Below are positions 10,619 through 19,198 of a stretch of DNA of 64,000 nt, piece by piece (position 1 is the first letter of the stretch; each line of letters begins with the position of its first letter). Both the position numbers and the translations under genes were made by a program. The stretch lies in the NCBI GenBank assembly GCA_000701725.1, contig JNJQ01000004.1, positions 62,001-126,000 of the forward strand, read 5' to 3'. A model generated the notes under the pieces. The model worked only from the letters and a program-made list of their open reading frames with translations, was not told the DNA's origin and ran no database searches. This stretch comes from Erysipelotrichaceae bacterium NK3D112. GTDB lineage: Bacteria > Bacillota_I > Bacilli_A > Erysipelotrichales > Erysipelotrichaceae.

Positions 10619-11746
10619 TTATTGGGCGAAGGTGATGCGTCCCTCAATGCCTTCGCTGTATACGCACCAGTATCCGCCGGACAGTTTTCCTTCCTGATCC
10701 TGTGTCTTGTCCGGATCCATGATCCAGATTGCTTCGGCAGGATCGCCTGTTTTTTTCCTGTATGCCTCAAGCACTTTCTTTCCATCCTCAATGCTTAAAG
10801 TGAAGAGGGTGGTGGAAAGACAGTCAGCTGCCGATGAGTCGGGTGTGACGATGGAGACACTGTGATAATAATCAGCAGGTTTCAGTGTTGCGGGATCGAT
10901 GATGTGGTGATAAATCTTTCCGTCCTCGCCCTTGAAGAATCTTTCATAATCGCCGCTGGTCACAAATGAACCGGTTCCGTCCATTTCAACCGTGCAGTAG
11001 ATGCCCGATCCGTCCGCCGGATTGGCGATGCCGATGATCCATGGTGTGCCGTCTGCTTTCGGTCTGACGGTGCGGATGTTTCTGCCGGCATTGACGGTGG
11101 CGTAGGCGACATCGGTCTCATCCATATATTCGCCGATCCGCTCTGCCGCAAAGCCCTTGGCGATGCCGCCGACATCCAGGGACACATTTGGATCGGTGAT
11201 GAACACGGTGCTGTTTTCCTCATCGATCTCAACATACTGCCATCCGCAGTGCTGTGCGGCTTTCTGAAGTTCCTCATCCGTTGGCAGGGGAGCGTTTTTT
11301 CCTTCGGAGTTCAGGACAATGCCCGCGTCACGGTATTCATGCCATACCCTTAGCACGGAGCCGATCGTGATATCAAAGGCGCCGTCCGAGATTTCCGCGA
11401 ATTCCTTCGCCTCCTTGAGCATGTCAATGATCTGCTGATCCACTTTGACCGGCTGTTTTCCGGCATTGTCATTGACCGTTTTAAGATTGTTCACACCATC
11501 ATAATCGTTGTAGATATCGAAGAGATCATTGAACTGTCTGAACATGTCTTCCGTATCACGGAAACACGCCTCCATCCCATCGCGGTCAGTGCCGAATTCG
11601 GTGAGCTGGTAAACCGTGTCGAAGCCGGCATCCACGGAAAGGTTGGTGTATTTGATGAGCTCGGTTTCAGGCGCAGGTTTTTCATCCGCGCATGCACATG
11701 TGAAAGCGGCTGCGAGCAGCGCCGCTGCGATTGATTTTTTACTCAT
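10619..11746 (-). CDS. apbE: FAD:protein FMN transferase (ApbE), exported
   Basis: The 375-residue protein starts MSKKSIAAALLAAAFTCAC, a signal peptide with a lipobox-like Cys, so it should be anchored outside the membrane. VNLDVGGIAKGFAAERI-type sequence (here SLDVGGIAKGFAAERI) is the ApbE signature, and HIIDPATLKP is a second conserved block. ApbE transfers FMN from FAD onto Thr/Ser in S/T-G-A-S/T motifs of proteins such as RnfG and RnfD. It lies divergent from the rnf operon, 122 bases away, which fits its role of loading flavin onto that complex. An extended -10 box (TGGTATACT) ends seven bases before the ATG, so the mRNA looks leaderless. Confidence 0.93.
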   Translation of the reverse strand: MSKKSIAAALLAAAFTCACADEKPAPETELIKYTNLSVDAGFDTVYQLTEFGTDRDGMEACFRDTEDMFRQFNDLFDIYNDYDGVNNLKTVNDNAGKQPVKVDQQIIDMLKEAKEFAEISDGAFDITIGSVLRVWHEYRDAGIVLNSEGKNAPLPTDEELQKAAQHCGWQYVEIDEENSTVFITDPNVSLDVGGIAKGFAAERIGEYMDETDVAYATVNAGRNIRTVRPKADGTPWIIGIANPADGSGIYCTVEMDGTGSFVTSGDYERFFKGEDGKIYHHIIDPATLKPADYYHSVSIVTPDSSAADCLSTTLFTLSIEDGKKVLEAYRKKTGDPAEAIWIMDPDKTQDQEGKLSGGYWCVYSEGIEGRITFAQ

Positions 11747-11753
11747 AGACAGG

Positions 11754-11762
11754 AGTATACCA
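11754..11762 (-). promoter_or_regulatory. Extended -10 promoter of apbE (leaderless type)
   Basis: On the reverse strand TGGTATACT is followed by seven bases and then the ATG. The expected transcription start coincides with the start codon. Confidence 0.55.
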
Positions 11763-11819
11763 TAAAAACAGCAAGTTCAAATACTCACAAGTGATAAGCA
11801 TGTCATAAGGTGTAATCGA

Positions 11820-11828
11820 TGATATAAT
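11820..11828 (+). promoter_or_regulatory. Extended -10 promoter of the rnf operon
   Basis: TGATATAAT precedes rnfC by 40 bases, with AGAAAGGG as ribosome site in between. No strong -35 box is apparent. Confidence 0.55.
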
Positions 11829-11868
11829 AAACCATGTTAATTAAGGGAACAGAAAGGGTTATCACATT

Positions 11869-13191
11869 ATGTCAATTCTCACAGGACCGATGAATCATCG
11901 CCTGGACGGACATAAGGATCTGACCAAACACAAGGATGTATTGAAAACAATAGATCCCGACCAGGTCTGGATTCCTCTTGTCAACGGCAATGCCCCCTGC
12001 AAGGCATGTGTCTCCGTCGGTGATGAAGTAAAAGTCGGCACAAAAATCGCGGAGAGAAATGATCATTTTTATCTTCCGCTCTTTTCGCCTGTATCCGGCA
12101 CGGTGACAGGCATCGAAAAGTTTATGACATCCGGACTCGGACAGGCGGAGCACCTGTGCATCCAGAACGATCATAAACACGAAAAAGTCCGTGCATTCGC
12201 ACCGTTTGATGCGGAAAAGGCAAGCTGGGAGGAACTGCTTGATTTTGTCAAAAACGCAGGTATGCTCGGCCTTGGCGGCGCCGGTTTCCCGACCTACGTC
12301 AAGTACCTCAAACCCGAAAATGTTGACCTGTTCATCGTCAACGCGGTTGAATGCGAACCGTATCTGACCGCGGACTACAAGAATATCGAGGAGAATCTCG
12401 ACCTTCTGAAAACAGGCACACTCGCGCTGTTCAAGCTCTCCAAAGCCGCGAAGGGATGCGTGGCCATCAAGGAGGACAAGAAGGAACAGATTGAAGATCT
12501 GAAAAAGACATTTGCCGGAACACCGATTGAAATCAGAACCGTTCCGGATCTGTATCCGATGGGCTGGGAAAGAACACTCGTTTACCAGCTGACAAAGAAG
12601 AGATATGACAAGCTGCCGATCGAGGCCGGCTGCATTCTCAACAACGCTTCAACCGCCATCGCGCTTGGCAACGCGATTGACAACGGCATGCCGATCACCC
12701 ACAAGTATGTGACCGTATCCGGCGATGCCCTCAACAATCCGCAGAACGTCTATGTTCCGGTCGGCACCCGCGCCAGCACAATCATCGATGCGGTGGGCGG
12801 CTACAAAGATGGAACAGACAATGTTCTTCTGATTGCCGGCGGCCCGATGATGGGTAAGACAATCCCCAATGACAAGTTTGTCATCATGCCGCAGAACAAC
12901 GGTCTGACCGTGCTGATCAACAAGCCCAAGGAAGAGGTCAAGTGCCTGCGCTGCGGACGCTGCACAGAGACATGCCCGTCCGGACTGCAGCCGGTCCGTA
13001 TCGCCATGAGCTCGGCGATCTTCGACGAAGCTGAAATCATGAAACTTTCCGTCATGGACTGCATCGAGTGCGGTATGTGCACATGGATCTGTCCTTCCAA
13101 GATTGACGTCACCGAAAATGTCAGAAGGGCGAAGAACTTCATCAGAGCCAGACAGACAATCAGAGCAAAAGAGAAGGAGGCAAAGAAATAA
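11869..13191 (+). CDS. rnfC: Rnf electron transport complex subunit RnfC
   Basis: The 440-residue protein carries the RnfC features in order: an N-terminal barrel-sandwich region (residues 30-90), the NADH/FMN-binding segment GMLGLGGAGFPTYVKY, VNAVECEPYLTADY, a SLBB-like region, and two [4Fe-4S] motifs, CLRCGRCTETCPSGLQP and CIECGMCTWICPSKIDV. RnfC is the cytoplasmic NADH-reacting subunit. In known Rnf complexes electrons pass between ferredoxin and NAD+ while ions are pumped. It is the first gene of the rnf operon. Its stop shares one base with the rnfD start (TAATG). Confidence 0.95.
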   Translation: MSILTGPMNHRLDGHKDLTKHKDVLKTIDPDQVWIPLVNGNAPCKACVSVGDEVKVGTKIAERNDHFYLPLFSPVSGTVTGIEKFMTSGLGQAEHLCIQNDHKHEKVRAFAPFDAEKASWEELLDFVKNAGMLGLGGAGFPTYVKYLKPENVDLFIVNAVECEPYLTADYKNIEENLDLLKTGTLALFKLSKAAKGCVAIKEDKKEQIEDLKKTFAGTPIEIRTVPDLYPMGWERTLVYQLTKKRYDKLPIEAGCILNNASTAIALGNAIDNGMPITHKYVTVSGDALNNPQNVYVPVGTRASTIIDAVGGYKDGTDNVLLIAGGPMMGKTIPNDKFVIMPQNNGLTVLINKPKEEVKCLRCGRCTETCPSGLQPVRIAMSSAIFDEAEIMKLSVMDCIECGMCTWICPSKIDVTENVRRAKNFIRARQTIRAKEKEAKK

Positions 13192-14663
13192 TGAAATTCA
13201 CATTCAAGCCTTCGCCGAACTACCGCAACACCCAGTCCACAGTCGGGATCATGCTCGATCTCTCCATGTGCTTATGGGCAGTGGTTCTCTTCTCGGCTGT
13301 CTACTATGGCATCGCCTATGGACCTGCTTACGGCTTCAGAGTCATCATGATGACTCTGGTCTCCCATGTCGCCGCAATCGGCACGGAGGCGGTCTACTTC
13401 AAACTGCGCGGCTATGACGTCAAAAAGGAACTGAAGCATTCCTTCAGCTGGGTCACAGCCCTGATTCTCACCCTGATCACAAGACTGGATGTCTCCTATT
13501 ACGCACTGTTTGTCGGCACCGTGATGGCAATCATCATCGGCAAGCTCGTATTCGGCGGCTTCGGTCAGAATATCTTCAACCCGGCAGCCTTCGGCGAAGC
13601 GCTGATCATGAACAGCTTCGCAGGCTCCAAGGCGGCAGCCGTTACCGCGGATGTCTTCTCTGGCGCCACCCCGATGGCAGCGATGAATTCCAATAACTGG
13701 ATCCTCTCATCCAGCGCGATGGGCAATCTCATCAAAGGCTACGGCGGCTGGGGCGGACTGCTTCTGGGTTCCTATCCGAGCGTCATCGGCGGTAGCTGCG
13801 CAGTCCTGATTCTCTTATGCGGCGCCTATCTCTTATGGAGAAAGGACATTGACTGGCATCTGTCCGTCACTTACCTGATCACCGTCTTCTGCATTTCACT
13901 GGTTGTCGGTCTGATCAAAGGCGCAGGCATCAACTACGCAATCTTCAATGTCATCTCCGGCGGTGTTCTCTTCGGCACAGTCTTCATGATGACAGACCCG
14001 GTCACCACCCCGATCACGATTCCCGGACGTATGGTATTCGCGGTCGGATGCGCGGCCCTCACACTGATTCTGAGATGGAAGAGCAATCTGCCTGACGGCG
14101 TGCTGTTCTCCATCCTGCTGATGAATATGCTGACACCGGCTATCGACAAACTGGTCGACGGCAACCAGATCAAGAACCAGGTTCTGATCAGACGCAAGGT
14201 TGTCTACACATCCATCGTTATCATTCTCGCAGCCTTCTGCGTCGGTATGACACTCGACAAGGTCGCCGCTGACACAACTCCGGCAGACACACCTGCCGAT
14301 GTGAGCGGAGAACCCGCAGGCATGGCTCTGGAAGACTTCTCAGCCAATGAGGCGGCATGCCGCGTCTGGAGCAATACCGATGAGGCAGCCTATGTCTATC
14401 ATTGCAGCGCCAAGGGCTTTGAAGGCACCAACAAGGCAACCATCACTGTTGACGCCACCAAGGGAACCATCACATCCATCGAAGTGACTGAATTCAATGA
14501 CACAACGGGTGTCGGCGACACAGCCACAACCGCGGATGAGCTTGGCCGCTATGCAGGCGCAACGATCAACTCAACGATTGACGCGACCGCCGGCGCCAGC
14601 ATGACCAGCGGATCGCTCAGAGCCATGGCAGCCAAAGCGCTGAACATGGCCGCGGGAAAGTAA
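13191..14663 (+). CDS. rnfD: RnfD with an extra membrane helix and a C-terminal FMN-binding module
   Basis: The 490-residue protein is far longer than usual RnfD (about 320-350). Residues 1-330 are the normal membrane subunit, with the canonical flavinylation site SGATP (Thr160). An additional helix (about 337-359) follows an arginine/lysine-rich cytosolic loop, so by the positive-inside rule the rest lies outside the cell. Residues 381-490 form a module like the FMN_bind repeats of RnfG next door. It ends in DATAGASMTSGSLRAM, where Ser470 is the candidate flavin-linked residue. The last residues, LNMAAGK, are the same as the end of RnfG. GGAGG precedes the start. The extension may add an external flavin to the complex. 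Confidence 0.9.
   Translation: MKFTFKPSPNYRNTQSTVGIMLDLSMCLWAVVLFSAVYYGIAYGPAYGFRVIMMTLVSHVAAIGTEAVYFKLRGYDVKKELKHSFSWVTALILTLITRLDVSYYALFVGTVMAIIIGKLVFGGFGQNIFNPAAFGEALIMNSFAGSKAAAVTADVFSGATPMAAMNSNNWILSSSAMGNLIKGYGGWGGLLLGSYPSVIGGSCAVLILLCGAYLLWRKDIDWHLSVTYLITVFCISLVVGLIKGAGINYAIFNVISGGVLFGTVFMMTDPVTTPITIPGRMVFAVGCAALTLILRWKSNLPDGVLFSILLMNMLTPAIDKLVDGNQIKNQVLIRRKVVYTSIVIILAAFCVGMTLDKVAADTTPADTPADVSGEPAGMALEDFSANEAACRVWSNTDEAAYVYHCSAKGFEGTNKATITVDATKGTITSIEVTEFNDTTGVGDTATTADELGRYAGATINSTIDATAGASMTSGSLRAMAAKALNMAAGK
14331..14660 (+). repeat. FMN-binding module copy in rnfD (copy 1 of 3)
   Basis: About 110 codons, from EDFSANEAACRVW to LNMAAGK, are homologous to two copies in rnfG. DNA identity to the last rnfG copy is visibly high, including an identical stretch of more than 20 bases over the IEVTEF codons. 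Confidence 0.85.
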
Positions 14664-14676
14664 GGAGGGCAGGAAG

Positions 14677-15987
14677 ATGAAGAAACTGAATCAGGATTCC
14701 GCTCTTTACAAGGCAGGACTGCTCGGCATTCTTTGTGCCGTGTGCGGACTTCTTCTCTCTGTTGCCAACGCGATCACTGCTCCGGTTATCGCTGAGAACG
14801 CTCTGGCAACCATCAAGGCAAGCCTGGAGGAAATCTATCCCGGCGCAACCTTCAATGACGTTACTGAAAAATATATCGCCCAGGACGAGACAGGTCTCAT
14901 CGACGGCATCTATGAGGCGGAAGGCAAGGGATATATCTTCACACTTCATGGTGTCGGTTATAACTCCAACGGCTTCACGTTCATGGTCGGCTTCGACAAT
15001 GACGGCGCGATCTCCGGATATACCGCTCTTGAACAGCAGGAAACTTCCGGCATCGGTGCCCGCGCATTCGAGCAGGAATACAGCGATCAGATCAAGTCTC
15101 TGACATCCTCCGATCCGATTCCGCTGCTGTCCGGCGCAACCCTGACATCCACCGCGGTTCAGAAGGGTATCGACGCAGCCAAGGCGATCTTCAACGATCT
15201 GCAGGGAATCTCCTATGATCCCAATGCCCAGGCAGCCACACCTGAACCCGCAAAGGCCCAGCCGCTTGCCAATGAGGATTACTCCGCCACTGGTGTAACG
15301 GTCGAGGAAGTCTCCAACGACGGCAAGACAGCCGTTTACCACTGCACAGCCAAGGGCTTTGAAGGAACCAATGAAGCTGACGTCACCGTTGATCTTGAAA
15401 GCGGCACAATCGTTTCGATCGCGGTCACAGCATTCAATGACACACCGGGTGTCGGCGACACCGCAACAACTGACGCTGAGCTTGCACGTTACAGCGGCAA
15501 GGGCCTGAACGACATGATTGACTCCACAACCGGCGCCAGCATGACCTCACGTTCCTTACGCGCAATGGCAGCCAACGCATTAAGCCTGGCAACCGGAACA
15601 GAACTGACTCCGGGCGCAGGTGATGCGGCAGCCAGCGGAAGCGGCATCGGCAGCGAGGACTTCTCGGACAGAGAAGCAGGCTGCATTGTCTATACAAACC
15701 TTGATGAAACAGCGTTTGTTTACGACTGCAAAGCGACCGGCTATCAGGGTGTCAACAAGGCTTATGTCACAGTTGATACAACAACCGGAACAGTCAAATC
15801 CATCGAAGTGACTGAATTCAACGACACTCCGGGTGTCGGCGACACAGCCACCACAGCGCAAGAGCTTGCCCGCTATGAAGGCGCGACACTGGAAAGCAGC
15901 GTTGACGCAACCGCCGGCGCAAGCATGACCAGCGCATCCATCCGGGCAATGGCAGCTGCCGCTCTGAACATGGCAGCGGGCAAATAA
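14677..15987 (+). CDS. rnfG: RnfG with three tandem FMN-binding domains
   Basis: The 436-residue protein is about twice the usual RnfG length (near 200). It has an N-terminal membrane anchor (12-34). The canonical FMN_bind domain ends in LLSGATLTSTAVQKGI (Thr155 is the expected flavin site). Two further modules follow, ending in DSTTGASMTSRSLRAM (Ser288) and DATAGASMTSASIRAM (Ser416), joined by Ala/Pro/Gly-rich linkers. Everything after the anchor should be extracytoplasmic. Normal RnfG carries one covalent FMN; this one could carry three. The modules share AKGFEGTN, FNDTPGVGDTATT and ELARY. AAGGAGGG precedes the ATG. Whether the Ser sites are flavinylated needs direct measurement. Confidence 0.93.
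   Translation: MKKLNQDSALYKAGLLGILCAVCGLLLSVANAITAPVIAENALATIKASLEEIYPGATFNDVTEKYIAQDETGLIDGIYEAEGKGYIFTLHGVGYNSNGFTFMVGFDNDGAISGYTALEQQETSGIGARAFEQEYSDQIKSLTSSDPIPLLSGATLTSTAVQKGIDAAKAIFNDLQGISYDPNAQAATPEPAKAQPLANEDYSATGVTVEEVSNDGKTAVYHCTAKGFEGTNEADVTVDLESGTIVSIAVTAFNDTPGVGDTATTDAELARYSGKGLNDMIDSTTGASMTSRSLRAMAANALSLATGTELTPGAGDAAASGSGIGSEDFSDREAGCIVYTNLDETAFVYDCKATGYQGVNKAYVTVDTTTGTVKSIEVTEFNDTPGVGDTATTAQELARYEGATLESSVDATAGASMTSASIRAMAAAALNMAAGK
15274..15594 (+). repeat. FMN-binding module copy in rnfG (copy 2 of 3)
   Basis: It encodes EDYSATGVTVEEV to RAMAANALSLATG. This middle copy is more diverged but keeps the TTGAS flavinylation-like motif. Confidence 0.8.
15655..15984 (+). repeat. 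FMN-binding module copy in rnfG (copy 3 of 3)
   Basis: It encodes EDFSDREAGCIVY to LNMAAGK. It is the closest relative of the module at the end of rnfD, in both protein and DNA sequence. Confidence 0.85.
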
Positions 15988-15999
15988 CAGGAGGACCTT

Positions 16000-16659
16000 A
16001 TGAGCGAAAAGAAAGCAAAGAAACAGAGTCTGTTCACCAGACTGCTGGTTGAAAACCCGGTCTTTGGTCTGTACCTGGGCATCTGCTCGGCACTGGCCAT
16101 CACGACCAATATCAACAATGCCATCGGTATGGGCATTGCGGTCACCATCGTATTGACATTATCGAATATTCTCGTTTCCTCAATCAGGAACCTGACACCG
16201 GCTGACATTCACATTCCGGTATACATTGTTATCATCGCAACTCTGGTCACAATCGTCGGAATGATCATCCAGGCCTACACACCTTCCCTGTATTCCGCAC
16301 TTGGCGCCTTCATTGACCTGATCGTCGTCAACTGCATCATCCTGGGAAGAGCGGAAGCCTTCGCTTCCATGAACCCGATCGGACCTTCGATTCTCGACGG
16401 TCTGACCATGGGATGCTCATACACAATGAGTATTCTGACAATGTCCTTCTTCAGACAGATCCTGGGAACTGGCGTCCTCTCACTCTCCAATCCGTTCACA
16501 AACGCGGAGGTCTTCTCGATCAGACTGATTCCGGAGGGATTCGAGCTGCCGTTCTTCAAGGAACAGTTCGGCGCGTTTATCACATTCGCATGTCTTGCGG
16601 CTGCGGTTTCCGCCTTCAAGGCCAATGTTGAGAAAAAGGAGAAGAGTGCTGAATTATGA
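16000..16659 (+). CDS. rnfE: Rnf complex subunit RnfE
   Basis: The 219-residue protein has six predicted membrane helices and matches the RnfE/NqrD family: NPVFGLYLGICSALAITTNI at the start, VNCIILGRAEAFASMNPIGPS with its conserved Cys in a helix, and PEGFELPFFKEQFGAFI near the end. RnfE and RnfA form a symmetric pair that holds an iron-sulfur centre between them in the membrane. ACAGGAGG precedes the start. Its stop overlaps the rnfA start (ATGA). Confidence 0.94.
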   Translation: MSEKKAKKQSLFTRLLVENPVFGLYLGICSALAITTNINNAIGMGIAVTIVLTLSNILVSSIRNLTPADIHIPVYIVIIATLVTIVGMIIQAYTPSLYSALGAFIDLIVVNCIILGRAEAFASMNPIGPSILDGLTMGCSYTMSILTMSFFRQILGTGVLSLSNPFTNAEVFSIRLIPEGFELPFFKEQFGAFITFACLAAAVSAFKANVEKKEKSAEL

Positions 16660-17228
16660 ACCTGTTTACATTGTTCATCAGCGCAATGCTGATCAATAAC
16701 ATCATCCTTTCCAAGTTCATCGGCATGTGCCCGTTCATGGGTGTCTCCACATCCATGAATTCCGCTGTCGGTATGGGACTCGCGGTTATCTTCGTCGTAT
16801 TCTGCGCATCGGTGCTCTCCTATGGACTGTATTACGCGGTTCTGGCTCCGCTGCATCTGGAATACATGAAGCTGATCTGCTTCATTCTGGTCATCGCCGC
16901 ATTCGTTCAGTTTGTTGAACTGTTCATCAAGAAGAACAGCCCGGCACTGTACAAGTCACTGGGTATCTATCTTCCTCTGATCACAACCAACTGCGCGGTT
17001 CTCTATGTTGCTCTTGACAACATCACACAGGAATACACACTGCTTGAGACAATCGTGAACTCGATCGGTGTTCCTGCCGGATTCATGCTGATGCTCTGCA
17101 TCTTCTCCACCATCCGTGAACGTCTCAGAGGAAACGATGTTCCGGAGGCATTCCAGGGCAATCCGATCGCCTTCATCATCGCTGCCATCATGGCGCTGGC
17201 GTTCTCGTCACTGGCGGGTCTGGTTTAA
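16656..17228 (+). CDS. rnfA: Rnf complex subunit RnfA
   Basis: The 190-residue integral membrane protein has six helices: ISAMLINNIILSKFIGMCPF with its conserved Cys at the start, LPLITTNCAVLYVAL in the middle, and a C-terminal helix FIIAAIMALAFSSLAGL. It is the partner of RnfE in the membrane core. Translation is coupled to rnfE through a four-base overlap. A small Cys-rich gene follows after three bases, in the place where rnfB would normally come directly. Confidence 0.95.
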   Translation: MNLFTLFISAMLINNIILSKFIGMCPFMGVSTSMNSAVGMGLAVIFVVFCASVLSYGLYYAVLAPLHLEYMKLICFILVIAAFVQFVELFIKKNSPALYKSLGIYLPLITTNCAVLYVALDNITQEYTLLETIVNSIGVPAGFMLMLCIFSTIRERLRGNDVPEAFQGNPIAFIIAAIMALAFSSLAGLV

Positions 17229-17231
17229 GCC

Positions 17232-17429
17232 ATGAGTACAGTCATCGCAATTCTGATCACGCTCACGCTGGTCGGCCTCAACGCGTTTCTCTACATCCGC
17301 AACAAGCAGACACCTGTTCCAGAAGGATGCGAGAATCTCAAACCCGACTGCGCCGCATGCGGGATCGGTGATTGTGCTCTGCGCAGCAAATTTTTGGAAA
17401 TGAAAGAGGAAGAAAATGGAGATCATTAA
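17232..17429 (+). CDS. Small Cys-rich single-span membrane protein inside the rnf operon
   Basis: The 65-residue protein has one membrane helix (residues 3-22), a short basic segment, and a cysteine cluster Cys33, Cys40, Cys43 and Cys48 (CX6CX2CX4C). The CX2CGX3C part resembles the iron-sulfur motif of RnfB encoded next (CGGCGNPGC). It sits three bases after rnfA and overlaps rnfB by 14 bases, so it is translated with the complex. I do not recognise a family; the layout also recalls short FeoB-associated Cys-rich proteins. It may bind an iron-sulfur cluster or metal as an extra electron-carrying subunit, which is inference. Confidence 0.75.
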   Translation: MSTVIAILITLTLVGLNAFLYIRNKQTPVPEGCENLKPDCAACGIGDCALRSKFLEMKEEENGDH

Positions 17430-17697
17430 AGCGGTATTGCTGATGCTTGTTCTCGGCGGCGTCATCGGTGTTCTTCTCGGCATTGCAAGCGTCAAGCTCT
17501 ATGTTGAGGAAGACCACAGAGTCGAGGATGTTCTTGCCATGCTGCCGGGTTACAACTGCGGCGGCTGCGGAAATCCCGGCTGTGCGGGTATGGCTGCCAA
17601 GCTCGTGGAAGGGGAGAGCACCATCGACAAGTGCAAACCCTGCAAAGCGGACGCCAAGGAAGCCATCGTTGCCTATCTCAGGGAACACGCAGCTTAA
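17416..17697 (+). CDS. rnfB: Minimal RnfB lacking the ferredoxin-type domains
   Basis: The 93-residue protein has the RnfB N-terminal helix (residues 5-25), then VLAMLPGYNCGGCGNPGCAG, the RnfB/NqrF-like Fe-S domain, with Cys48, Cys51, Cys56, Cys73 and Cys76. Usual RnfB proteins continue with two or more [4Fe-4S] ferredoxin domains (total about 190-300 residues); here a stop codon follows at once, then a terminator. No ferredoxin-like sequence is found in other frames downstream, so this is not a recent frameshift. GAGGAAG within the preceding gene is the ribosome site. The complex may receive electrons by a different route. Confidence 0.85.
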   Translation: MEIIKAVLLMLVLGGVIGVLLGIASVKLYVEEDHRVEDVLAMLPGYNCGGCGNPGCAGMAAKLVEGESTIDKCKPCKADAKEAIVAYLREHAA

Positions 17698-17728: not shown

Positions 17729-17752
17729 AAACGGACATGGGCCGTTTTTTTT
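17729..17752 (+). terminator. Terminator of the rnf operon
   Basis: AACGG and CCGTT with a seven-base loop are followed by a run of eight T. Confidence 0.75.
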
Positions 17753-17863
17753 CGTTTCAATTTGTATGCCCGTTTTGCACGGATTGTGGGATAATTGAAA
17801 AAGTCTGCTTTTTATTCAGACTGTTCATTCTGTTCAGATCATGGACAGATTCAGAGGTGTTTT

Positions 17864-19198
17864 ATGAATCGAGAAAGATTATCAAGCCGTCTTGGCTTTA
17901 TCATGCTTTCAGCCGGATGCGCGATCGGCTGCGGCAATGTATGGAAATTTCCGTGGATGTGCGGACAATACGGAGGCGGCAGTTTTGTCCTGCTGTATAT
18001 CGCGTTTCTGATCGTGCTCGGTCTGCCCGTGCTGGTCATGGAGTTCTCCGTGGGCAGAGCTTCCCAGAGCTCGCCCGTACAGATGTTCCAGAAACTTCAG
18101 AAGAAGGGAACCAAATGGGGACTCTGGGGTTATGTGTGTCTGCTTGGCAATGTCGCACTGATGGCGTTCTATGCGGTCGTGTGCGGATGGATGATGTATT
18201 ACTTCTGGAAATTCCTGAGCGGCAGCACCGATTCCCTCGGTTTTATGCCGATGATCACCAATCCGGCCGTCAATGTGAGCTTCCTTTTGCTCACGGTCGT
18301 CTTTGCCTTTGCAGTACTGAGCTTCAATCTGCAGAACGGTCTTGAGCGAATTACGAAAGTGATGATGATCTCGCTGCTTGTATTGATGGGCGTTCTCGCT
18401 CTTCACAGCCTGAGCCTGCCCGGGGCAAGGGAAGGTCTTCGCTTCTATATGGTTCCCGACTTCTCCAAAATCAACGGAAAGGTTGCGGCCGCGGCGATGA
18501 ACCAGGCCTTCTTCACACTGTCCCTCGGCATGGGATCAATGGCCATCTTCGGATCCTATATCGACAAGCAGCGTTCTCTGACCGGTGAGGCCCTGCATGT
18601 TATTGTGCTTGACACATTGGTCGCATTGATTGCGGGCCTGATCATTTTCCCGGCATGTTTCAGCTATGGCATTGAAGTGGGCAACGGACCTTCGCTTCTG
18701 TTTGACACCATGGCCATCGTCTTCACCCATATGGCAGCAGGAAGACTCTGGGGAGCACTCTTCTTCCTCTTCATGGTTTTCGCGGCGATGAGCACCGTGC
18801 TCGGCGTGTGTGAAAACATCCTGGCAATGGTCAGGGAACTGAGTGGCTGGAGCCGTCCGAAGGGCAGTATTGTCTGTGCTGCGGGCGTGTTCCTGAGTGC
18901 GCTTACCACGGCCCTGGGTTACAGCGTTCTGCATTTTGAACCGTTTGCGCCGGGATCCGCATGGCTTGATTTCTGGGACTTCCTGGTTTCGACAAACATC
19001 CTTCCCATCGGTTCGCTCATCCTCTGTCTCTTCTGCTGCAATGAGTCCGGCTGGGGCTGGGACAATTTCCTGAAAGAGGCAAATGAGGGCACCGGCATCA
19101 AAATCAGTCCGCGCATGAAACCGCTGTTCCGGTTTGTGGTTCCCGCCATTATCCTCTTTGTATACATCTATGGACTTGCCGTATTCAAATGGCATTGA
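17864..19198 (+). CDS. Sodium-dependent transporter, NSS/SNF family
   Basis: The 444-residue protein begins with SRLGFIMLSAGCAIGCGNVWKF-like sequence, the first-helix signature of the neurotransmitter:sodium symporters, followed by GGGSFVLLYI and PVLVMEFSVG. About eleven membrane helices are visible. Family members import amino acids or related amines with Na+, and this prokaryotic type resembles the LeuT/MhsT group. I started it at the ATG at 17864, after AGAGGTG, not at upstream in-frame codons that lie over a TGGGATAAT promoter box. It is a single-gene unit with its own terminator. If the adjacent Rnf complex pumps Na+, it could support this uptake. Confidence 0.9.
   Translation: MNRERLSSRLGFIMLSAGCAIGCGNVWKFPWMCGQYGGGSFVLLYIAFLIVLGLPVLVMEFSVGRASQSSPVQMFQKLQKKGTKWGLWGYVCLLGNVALMAFYAVVCGWMMYYFWKFLSGSTDSLGFMPMITNPAVNVSFLLLTVVFAFAVLSFNLQNGLERITKVMMISLLVLMGVLALHSLSLPGAREGLRFYMVPDFSKINGKVAAAAMNQAFFTLSLGMGSMAIFGSYIDKQRSLTGEALHVIVLDTLVALIAGLIIFPACFSYGIEVGNGPSLLFDTMAIVFTHMAAGRLWGALFFLFMVFAAMSTVLGVCENILAMVRELSGWSRPKGSIVCAAGVFLSALTTALGYSVLHFEPFAPGSAWLDFWDFLVSTNILPIGSLILCLFCCNESGWGWDNFLKEANEGTGIKISPRMKPLFRFVVPAIILFVYIYGLAVFKWH

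Follow-up and report, generated by a model that had tools for sequence, protein, structure and literature searches.

A derived Rnf complex of Erysipelotrichales with a shortened RnfB and added flavin-binding modules, possibly remodelled for electron export

Erysipelotrichales possess a derived Rnf complex, conserved across the order, in which RnfB is shortened and both RnfD and RnfG can carry additional FMN_bind modules. On balance, we favor the view that this complex has been remodelled from a closed loop linking ferredoxin, the membrane and NAD into an electron exporter. The unit analyzed here lies in a window of 64,000 nucleotides, by which we mean the whole stretch of DNA examined. In the proposed mechanism, electrons from NADH would enter through RnfC and pass to the flavins of RnfD. 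From there, they would reach extracytosolic acceptors by way of covalent FMN groups, borne by RnfG and by the modules at the C-termini of RnfD and RnfG, which would hang outside the membrane as flexible beads. In the source genome, the likely acceptors would include lipoproteins that combine FMN_bind and fumarate-reductase-like FAD domains. From the other side, the shortened RnfB, together with intact RnfA and RnfE, may still admit electrons from soluble ferredoxin. Flavin attachment, the direction of electron flow and the acceptors are predicted, and ion pumping may or may not continue.

The source genome (Erysipelotrichaceae; 3.15 Mb in 95 contigs, 96% complete) has assembly RUG10685 as its closest named relative, with 95% identity in RnfD. 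The genes rnfC, rnfD, rnfG, rnfE, rnfA and rnfB are all present in one unit, in this order, on the plus strand (11869-17697). The divergent apbE (10619-11746, minus strand) encodes a 375-aa FAD:protein FMN transferase with a lipoprotein-like N-terminus (PF02424, E 4.4e-70); it adjoins the unit, as the first-pass annotation had noted, and is the single ApbE match in the whole genome. The NADH-side subunit RnfC (11869-13191, plus strand; TIGR01945, 355 bits against a cut-off of 246) has an intact FMN/NADH motif, GLGGAGFPT, and two intact [4Fe-4S] motifs, all of which are kept across loci. RnfE (16000-16659, plus strand; PF02508) and RnfA (16656-17228, plus strand; TIGR01943, 239 bits against a cut-off of 229) each contain both of their [2Fe-2S] cysteines, that is, all four required for the intramembrane cluster. 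The short rnfB (17416-17697, plus strand; PF04060 only) encodes a membrane helix and one [4Fe-4S] domain. RnfC and RnfA score above their NCBIfam cut-offs, and RnfD (188.5 versus 207), RnfG (91.9 versus 102) and RnfB (60.6 versus 68.7) fall slightly below theirs. A sigma-70 promoter-like site upstream of rnfC (11800-11828, plus strand; 10/12, with an extended -10) and a terminator-like hairpin downstream of rnfB (17729-17747, plus strand) are pattern matches only. The Pfam content rules out an NqrF-type system: NqrF (Fer2 plus FAD plus NAD domains) is absent as an electron input from the unit (10619-17697), and RnfD, which contains PF03116 and PF04205 only, is not fused to an NqrF-like NAD-binding domain (PF00175). 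Directly downstream of the unit (17795-19198), the window encodes a membrane protein that, by eye only, resembles a transporter of the sodium:neurotransmitter symporter type.

The open reading frames of rnfD (13191-14663, plus strand; 490 aa) and rnfG (14677-15987, plus strand; 436 aa) were found where the first-pass annotation had placed them, and the domain architecture that it had described for both was borne out by Pfam searches and structure models. In RnfD, the NQR2_RnfD_RnfE domain (residues 5-326, E 1.9e-70) is followed by an extra, eleventh membrane helix (residues 327-352 in the model, 14169-14246, plus strand; hydropathy peak at 337-355, after RRK) and by a C-terminal FMN_bind module (about residues 385-490, 14343-14660, plus strand), matched by PF04205 over residues 409-485 (E 9.5e-8, 33 bits against a cut-off of 22). 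RnfG contains three FMN_bind modules (about residues 75-176, 208-306 and 335-433; three PF04205 stretches, E 1.9e-32) and, with more than one such domain, resembles in architecture the RnfG proteins described as multi-flavinylated. The cores of RnfD and NqrB have both ends in the cytoplasm. Because of this, and because the new helix follows the positively charged RRK stretch, the RnfD module should lie outside the membrane, where ApbE works, in agreement with the initial prediction. The AlphaFold models (mean pLDDT of 75 for RnfD and 82 for RnfG) show the expected folds. In Foldseek searches, the RnfD model matches RnfD of Acetobacterium woodii, Azotobacter vinelandii and Clostridium tetanomorphum and, lower in the ranking, domain 1 of CbFMN4 (8p2b; 89 columns, TM 0.77 by target length, E 0.24, probability 1.00), a match that fits the C-terminal module. 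The RnfG model matches solved RnfG structures, and a profile built from RnfG relatives hits 8p2b across module 3 (E 2.9e-13). Covalent FMN in domain 1 of CbFMN4 has been proven crystallographically (PMC10339131).

The acceptor residues proposed for these two proteins were all located. The two canonical FMN acceptors are RnfD Thr160 (codon 13668-13670, plus strand; DVFSGAT), which is Thr in 34/34 relatives, and RnfG Thr155 (15139-15141, plus strand; SGAT), which is Thr in 16/16. The predicted acceptors of the additional modules are RnfD Ser470 (14598-14600, plus strand; DATAGAS), with Ser or Thr in 34/34 relatives, and, in modules 2 and 3 of RnfG, Ser288 (15538-15540, plus strand; DSTTGAS) and Ser416 (15922-15924, plus strand; DATAGAS), both with Ser or Thr in 16/16. 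These counts come from alignments of 34 fused RnfD and of 16 RnfG proteins, and in RnfG the count is the same for each of the two extra modules. In the models, Ser470, Ser288 and Ser416 are each the first residue of the last helix, the position that the acceptor likewise occupies in flavinylated crystal structures (PMC10339131). The ApbE consensus is Dxx[ST]GA[ST]; of the two possible acceptor residues, threonine is as a rule the more efficient and serine the less (PMC12052999). Among the extra modules, only the Ser288 motif matches the consensus in full. Thus, the five flavin sites are credible as a class, with Ser470 and Ser416 the weaker two in the source genome, since DATAGAS lacks the Ser or Thr at position 4; a close relative (L019) has TGAS at both positions. 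The wire of five flavins suggested at first is a hypothesis. A further candidate, RnfD Thr458 (AGAT), was rejected, its column not being conserved.

The second departure from a typical Rnf concerns RnfB. At 93 aa, it lacks the C-terminal ferredoxin-docking domain, a defining feature of Rnf; in structurally characterized RnfB proteins, this domain holds two to seven [4Fe-4S] clusters and receives the electrons of ferredoxin (PMC12174285). A frameshift or assembly error is ruled out, as the same short form was found in 66 of the 66 loci read. These comprise the window and its related loci, some of them from isolates of Holdemania, Anaerorhabdus and Lactimicrobium. No second, longer RnfB was found elsewhere in the genome, an absence to be read against its 96% completeness, and its two other PF04060 proteins are hydrogenase-like. 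When each rnfD was paired with the rnfB nearby in a survey of 148 Erysipelotrichales genomes, two kinds of Rnf emerged: RnfD proteins shorter than 340 aa pair with an RnfB of 260-298 aa (12 loci), and those of at least 340 aa pair with a short RnfB (92 loci). Four apparent exceptions dissolved on inspection: three are cut at contig ends, and in the fourth (G083) RnfB is in fact short. In a tree of RnfC and the RnfD core (46 loci), all loci with extended RnfD form one clade (bootstrap 100), separate from the canonical Rnf of Erysipelotrichales and of Youngiibacter. Short RnfB and extended RnfD thus became associated mainly in a single event. The pairing counts are accordingly not independent of one another, and the association does not provide independent evidence that the two traits are functionally linked. 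Module number varies widely within this clade. Named loci have zero to three extra modules in RnfD and one to five modules in total in RnfG, and some members are without any extra module. At least one RnfD module was found in 61/80 loci, a sample drawn with the fused protein as the query. In the module-free RnfD proteins inspected, the helix-11 extension is still present.

Some members of the clade have gone further. A clostridial lineage (its own bootstrap 100) is nested within the extended-RnfD clade, its exact place inside the clade being poorly resolved. In Youngiibacter fragilis (L095, 7653-12654) and three other genomes (L139, L140 and L141), the unit consists of rnfC, rnfD, rnfG, rnfE and rnfA, without rnfB, and all four intramembrane [2Fe-2S] cysteines of RnfA and RnfE are replaced. 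The NADH/FMN and [4Fe-4S] motifs of RnfC are kept in these loci, as are the FMN modules of RnfD and RnfG. Youngiibacter also possesses a canonical rnf operon, with an RnfB of 281 aa. A class-wide search from Youngiibacter (E 1e-60) yielded nothing further; an order-wide search added three genomes to the two already known. A further genome (G153) contains a unit in the order apbE-rnfC-D-G-E-A (L154, 825-6461), without rnfB and without the RnfA and RnfE cysteines, which branches apart from the clostridial lineage and is apparently an independent loss of the ferredoxin arm. The same genome harbors an rnfC-rnfD pair followed by a 610-aa FMN_bind plus FAD_binding_2 protein in place of rnfG (L153, 2498-6587, minus strand), possibly a minimal chain from NADH to an extracytosolic reductase. 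All these arrangements would make sense if RnfC and RnfD alone can pass NADH electrons to extracytosolic flavins. Separately, another locus (L152, 1876-5852, minus strand) contains NqrB/C/D/E-like genes beside an NqrF-like protein (Fer2, FAD_binding_6, NAD_binding_1); neither RnfC nor NqrA was found within that stretch.

The truncated RnfB and the relatives without the whole ferredoxin arm strengthen the outward-electron reading put forward at first, in which the direction of flow is itself inferred. They also bear on the chief alternative, that the complex is an ordinary ferredoxin:NAD+ ion pump in which free ferredoxin docks on the [4Fe-4S] domain of RnfB and the extra flavins form a side branch or an electron buffer. 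We regard this as rather unlikely, even though the unit retains the full set of six subunits, the window's clade preserves the cysteines of RnfA and RnfE, the [4Fe-4S] motif of RnfB and the motifs of RnfC, and module-free RnfD exists in the clade. Against it, the docking domain is missing clade-wide, the nested lineage without a ferredoxin arm keeps its flavin modules, and extra modules with conserved acceptor sites would be useless in a closed loop. The export reading has points against it as well. The complexes of the window's own clade, which still have the RnfA and RnfE cysteines and the [4Fe-4S] domain of RnfB, can probably still accept electrons from ferredoxin; some members of the clade have no extra module, and the motifs at Ser470 and Ser416 are weakened. 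How the clade might have been converted from ferredoxin:NAD+ ion pumps into NADH-driven exporters can be outlined in steps, a scenario for which we see about as much in favor as against. RnfB would have shed its docking domain as RnfD acquired a helix leading outward and modules with covalent FMN; repeated shuffling between rnfD and rnfG would have followed; and, finally, the clostridial lineage would have lost RnfB and the membrane [2Fe-2S] cluster, leaving the path from NADH through RnfC and RnfD with its FMN arms.

As candidate acceptors, the source genome encodes, at scattered places, four lipoprotein-like FMN_bind plus FAD_binding_2 proteins (L105, 5494-7383, plus strand; L106, 2904-4679, minus strand; L107, 5265-7793, plus strand; L108, 4088-5992, minus strand), one of them with two FMN_bind domains, and also a small FMN_bind protein. 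The lipoproteins are plausible electron acceptors. Close relatives of these proteins were not found in the genomes of family f2 that contain the same Rnf, which rules them out as universal partners; they are thus not the general acceptors. Among the canonical-Rnf genomes checked, 7/8 have a single FMN_bind domain, in RnfG, and one (G095) has more, elsewhere. The presence of reductase-like FAD partners in the source genome also counts against the reverse reading, electron import, in which extracytosolic donors would reduce the FMN modules and the electrons would run through RnfD and RnfC to NAD+. The NADH couple lies at about -320 mV. In a related multi-flavin protein, covalent FMN lies at -184 mV (PMC10339131), above that couple, which means that electrons could run inward to NAD+ only at an energetic cost. 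The sequence does not fix the direction, and known Rnf complexes can run the path between RnfC and RnfD either way (PMC12052999), but we consider import improbable.

The modules have been copied between the two genes. Both proteins of the window end in the peptide LNMAAGK, as had been observed at the outset. The accompanying claim that the last modules are nearly identical in DNA does not stand: identity is 72% over the whole module, 73% over 233 nt, 81% over the last 86 nt and 88% over the best 89 nt. Exchange between the genes is supported, conversely, by the relatives, where rnfD and rnfG modules share 99.7% of DNA positions over 369 nt reaching the stop codons in L024, 96.6% over 407 nt in L045, 95.2% in L086 and 90.8% in L027. 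Orthologous modules of sister species differ, although the rnfD and rnfG modules within some genomes are almost identical. For example, the RnfD and RnfG modules of L024, L045 and L086 are 97-100% identical in protein sequence within each genome, and the RnfD modules of these loci share 63-76% with those of their nearest relatives by RnfD core. In these three loci, the pattern is that of fresh gene conversion or of copying up to the stop codon, and recurrent copying between rnfD and rnfG is clear in the relatives. The recent copying proposed for the source genome itself is not supported, since the window's RnfD module shares 91% DNA identity with that of the nearest relative and 72% with module 3 of its own RnfG; by this measure, the window's copies are older than those of L024, L045, L086 and L027. 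A further reading, that the extra modules arose by duplication, matter little for function and for the most part carry no flavin, is very improbable. In its favor, their number varies widely (zero to three in RnfD, one to five in RnfG), they are copied between genes and the motif is weakened in the last modules of the window itself. Against it, the acceptor Ser or Thr is kept in every aligned module despite divergence of the proteins to about 35-40% identity, and a flavinylated crystal structure shows the same fold with the acceptor in the same place.

The first-pass annotation could not place the combination. It is a clade-wide architecture, and one part of it is already in the literature: in 2021, Meheust et al. 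described RNF clusters whose RnfG is multi-flavinylated and put forward the idea of a second path for electrons (PMC8238504). In the open literature searched, FMN modules on RnfD, a clade-wide short RnfB and an Rnf without a ferredoxin arm did not turn up, and outward electron flow via Rnf appears there as a proposal. If the export reading is true, it would explain how gut anaerobes could respire external acceptors without cytochromes, and the complex would represent a naturally occurring relay of FMN groups, variable in length and joined to the source of its electrons.

Compared with canonical Rnf (C. tetanomorphum, 7zc6; A. woodii, 9eri; A. vinelandii, 8ahx), the window has homologous RnfC, RnfD, RnfG, RnfE and RnfA and the N-terminal half of RnfB, and shares the FMN acceptors T160 and T155 and the RnfA and RnfE [2Fe-2S] cysteines; it differs in that RnfB lacks the C-terminal docking domain, RnfD has gained the eleventh helix and an FMN_bind module, and RnfG has three modules rather than one. 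The multi-flavinylated RnfG proteins of 2021 likewise have more than one FMN_bind domain, lie in an rnf cluster and have had a second path to extracytosolic acceptors proposed for them; some bear multi-heme domains, and the passages on them mention no RnfD modules, short RnfB or loss of the ferredoxin arm (PMC8238504). NQR/RNF-like systems likewise form a one-way route in which NAD(P)H electrons cross an RnfD-like protein and arrive at an extracytosolic FMN_bind domain, but they consist of a fusion of RnfD with an NAD-binding domain of the NqrF type and lack all other subunits (PMC8238504, PMC11334425), whereas the window has RnfC as its NADH subunit and keeps all Rnf subunits. SaFMN3 and CbFMN4 (PMC10339131; PDB 8p2b) share the repeated FMN_bind domains on flexible linkers and include the solved structure closest to the extra modules, but they are free secreted proteins, and the repeats of the window are fused to Rnf subunits. 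Evolution has set out a comparison series, several members of which occur in cultured bacteria: canonical Rnf, Rnf in which the ferredoxin arm is cut short and the flavins are more numerous, and Rnf with no ferredoxin arm.
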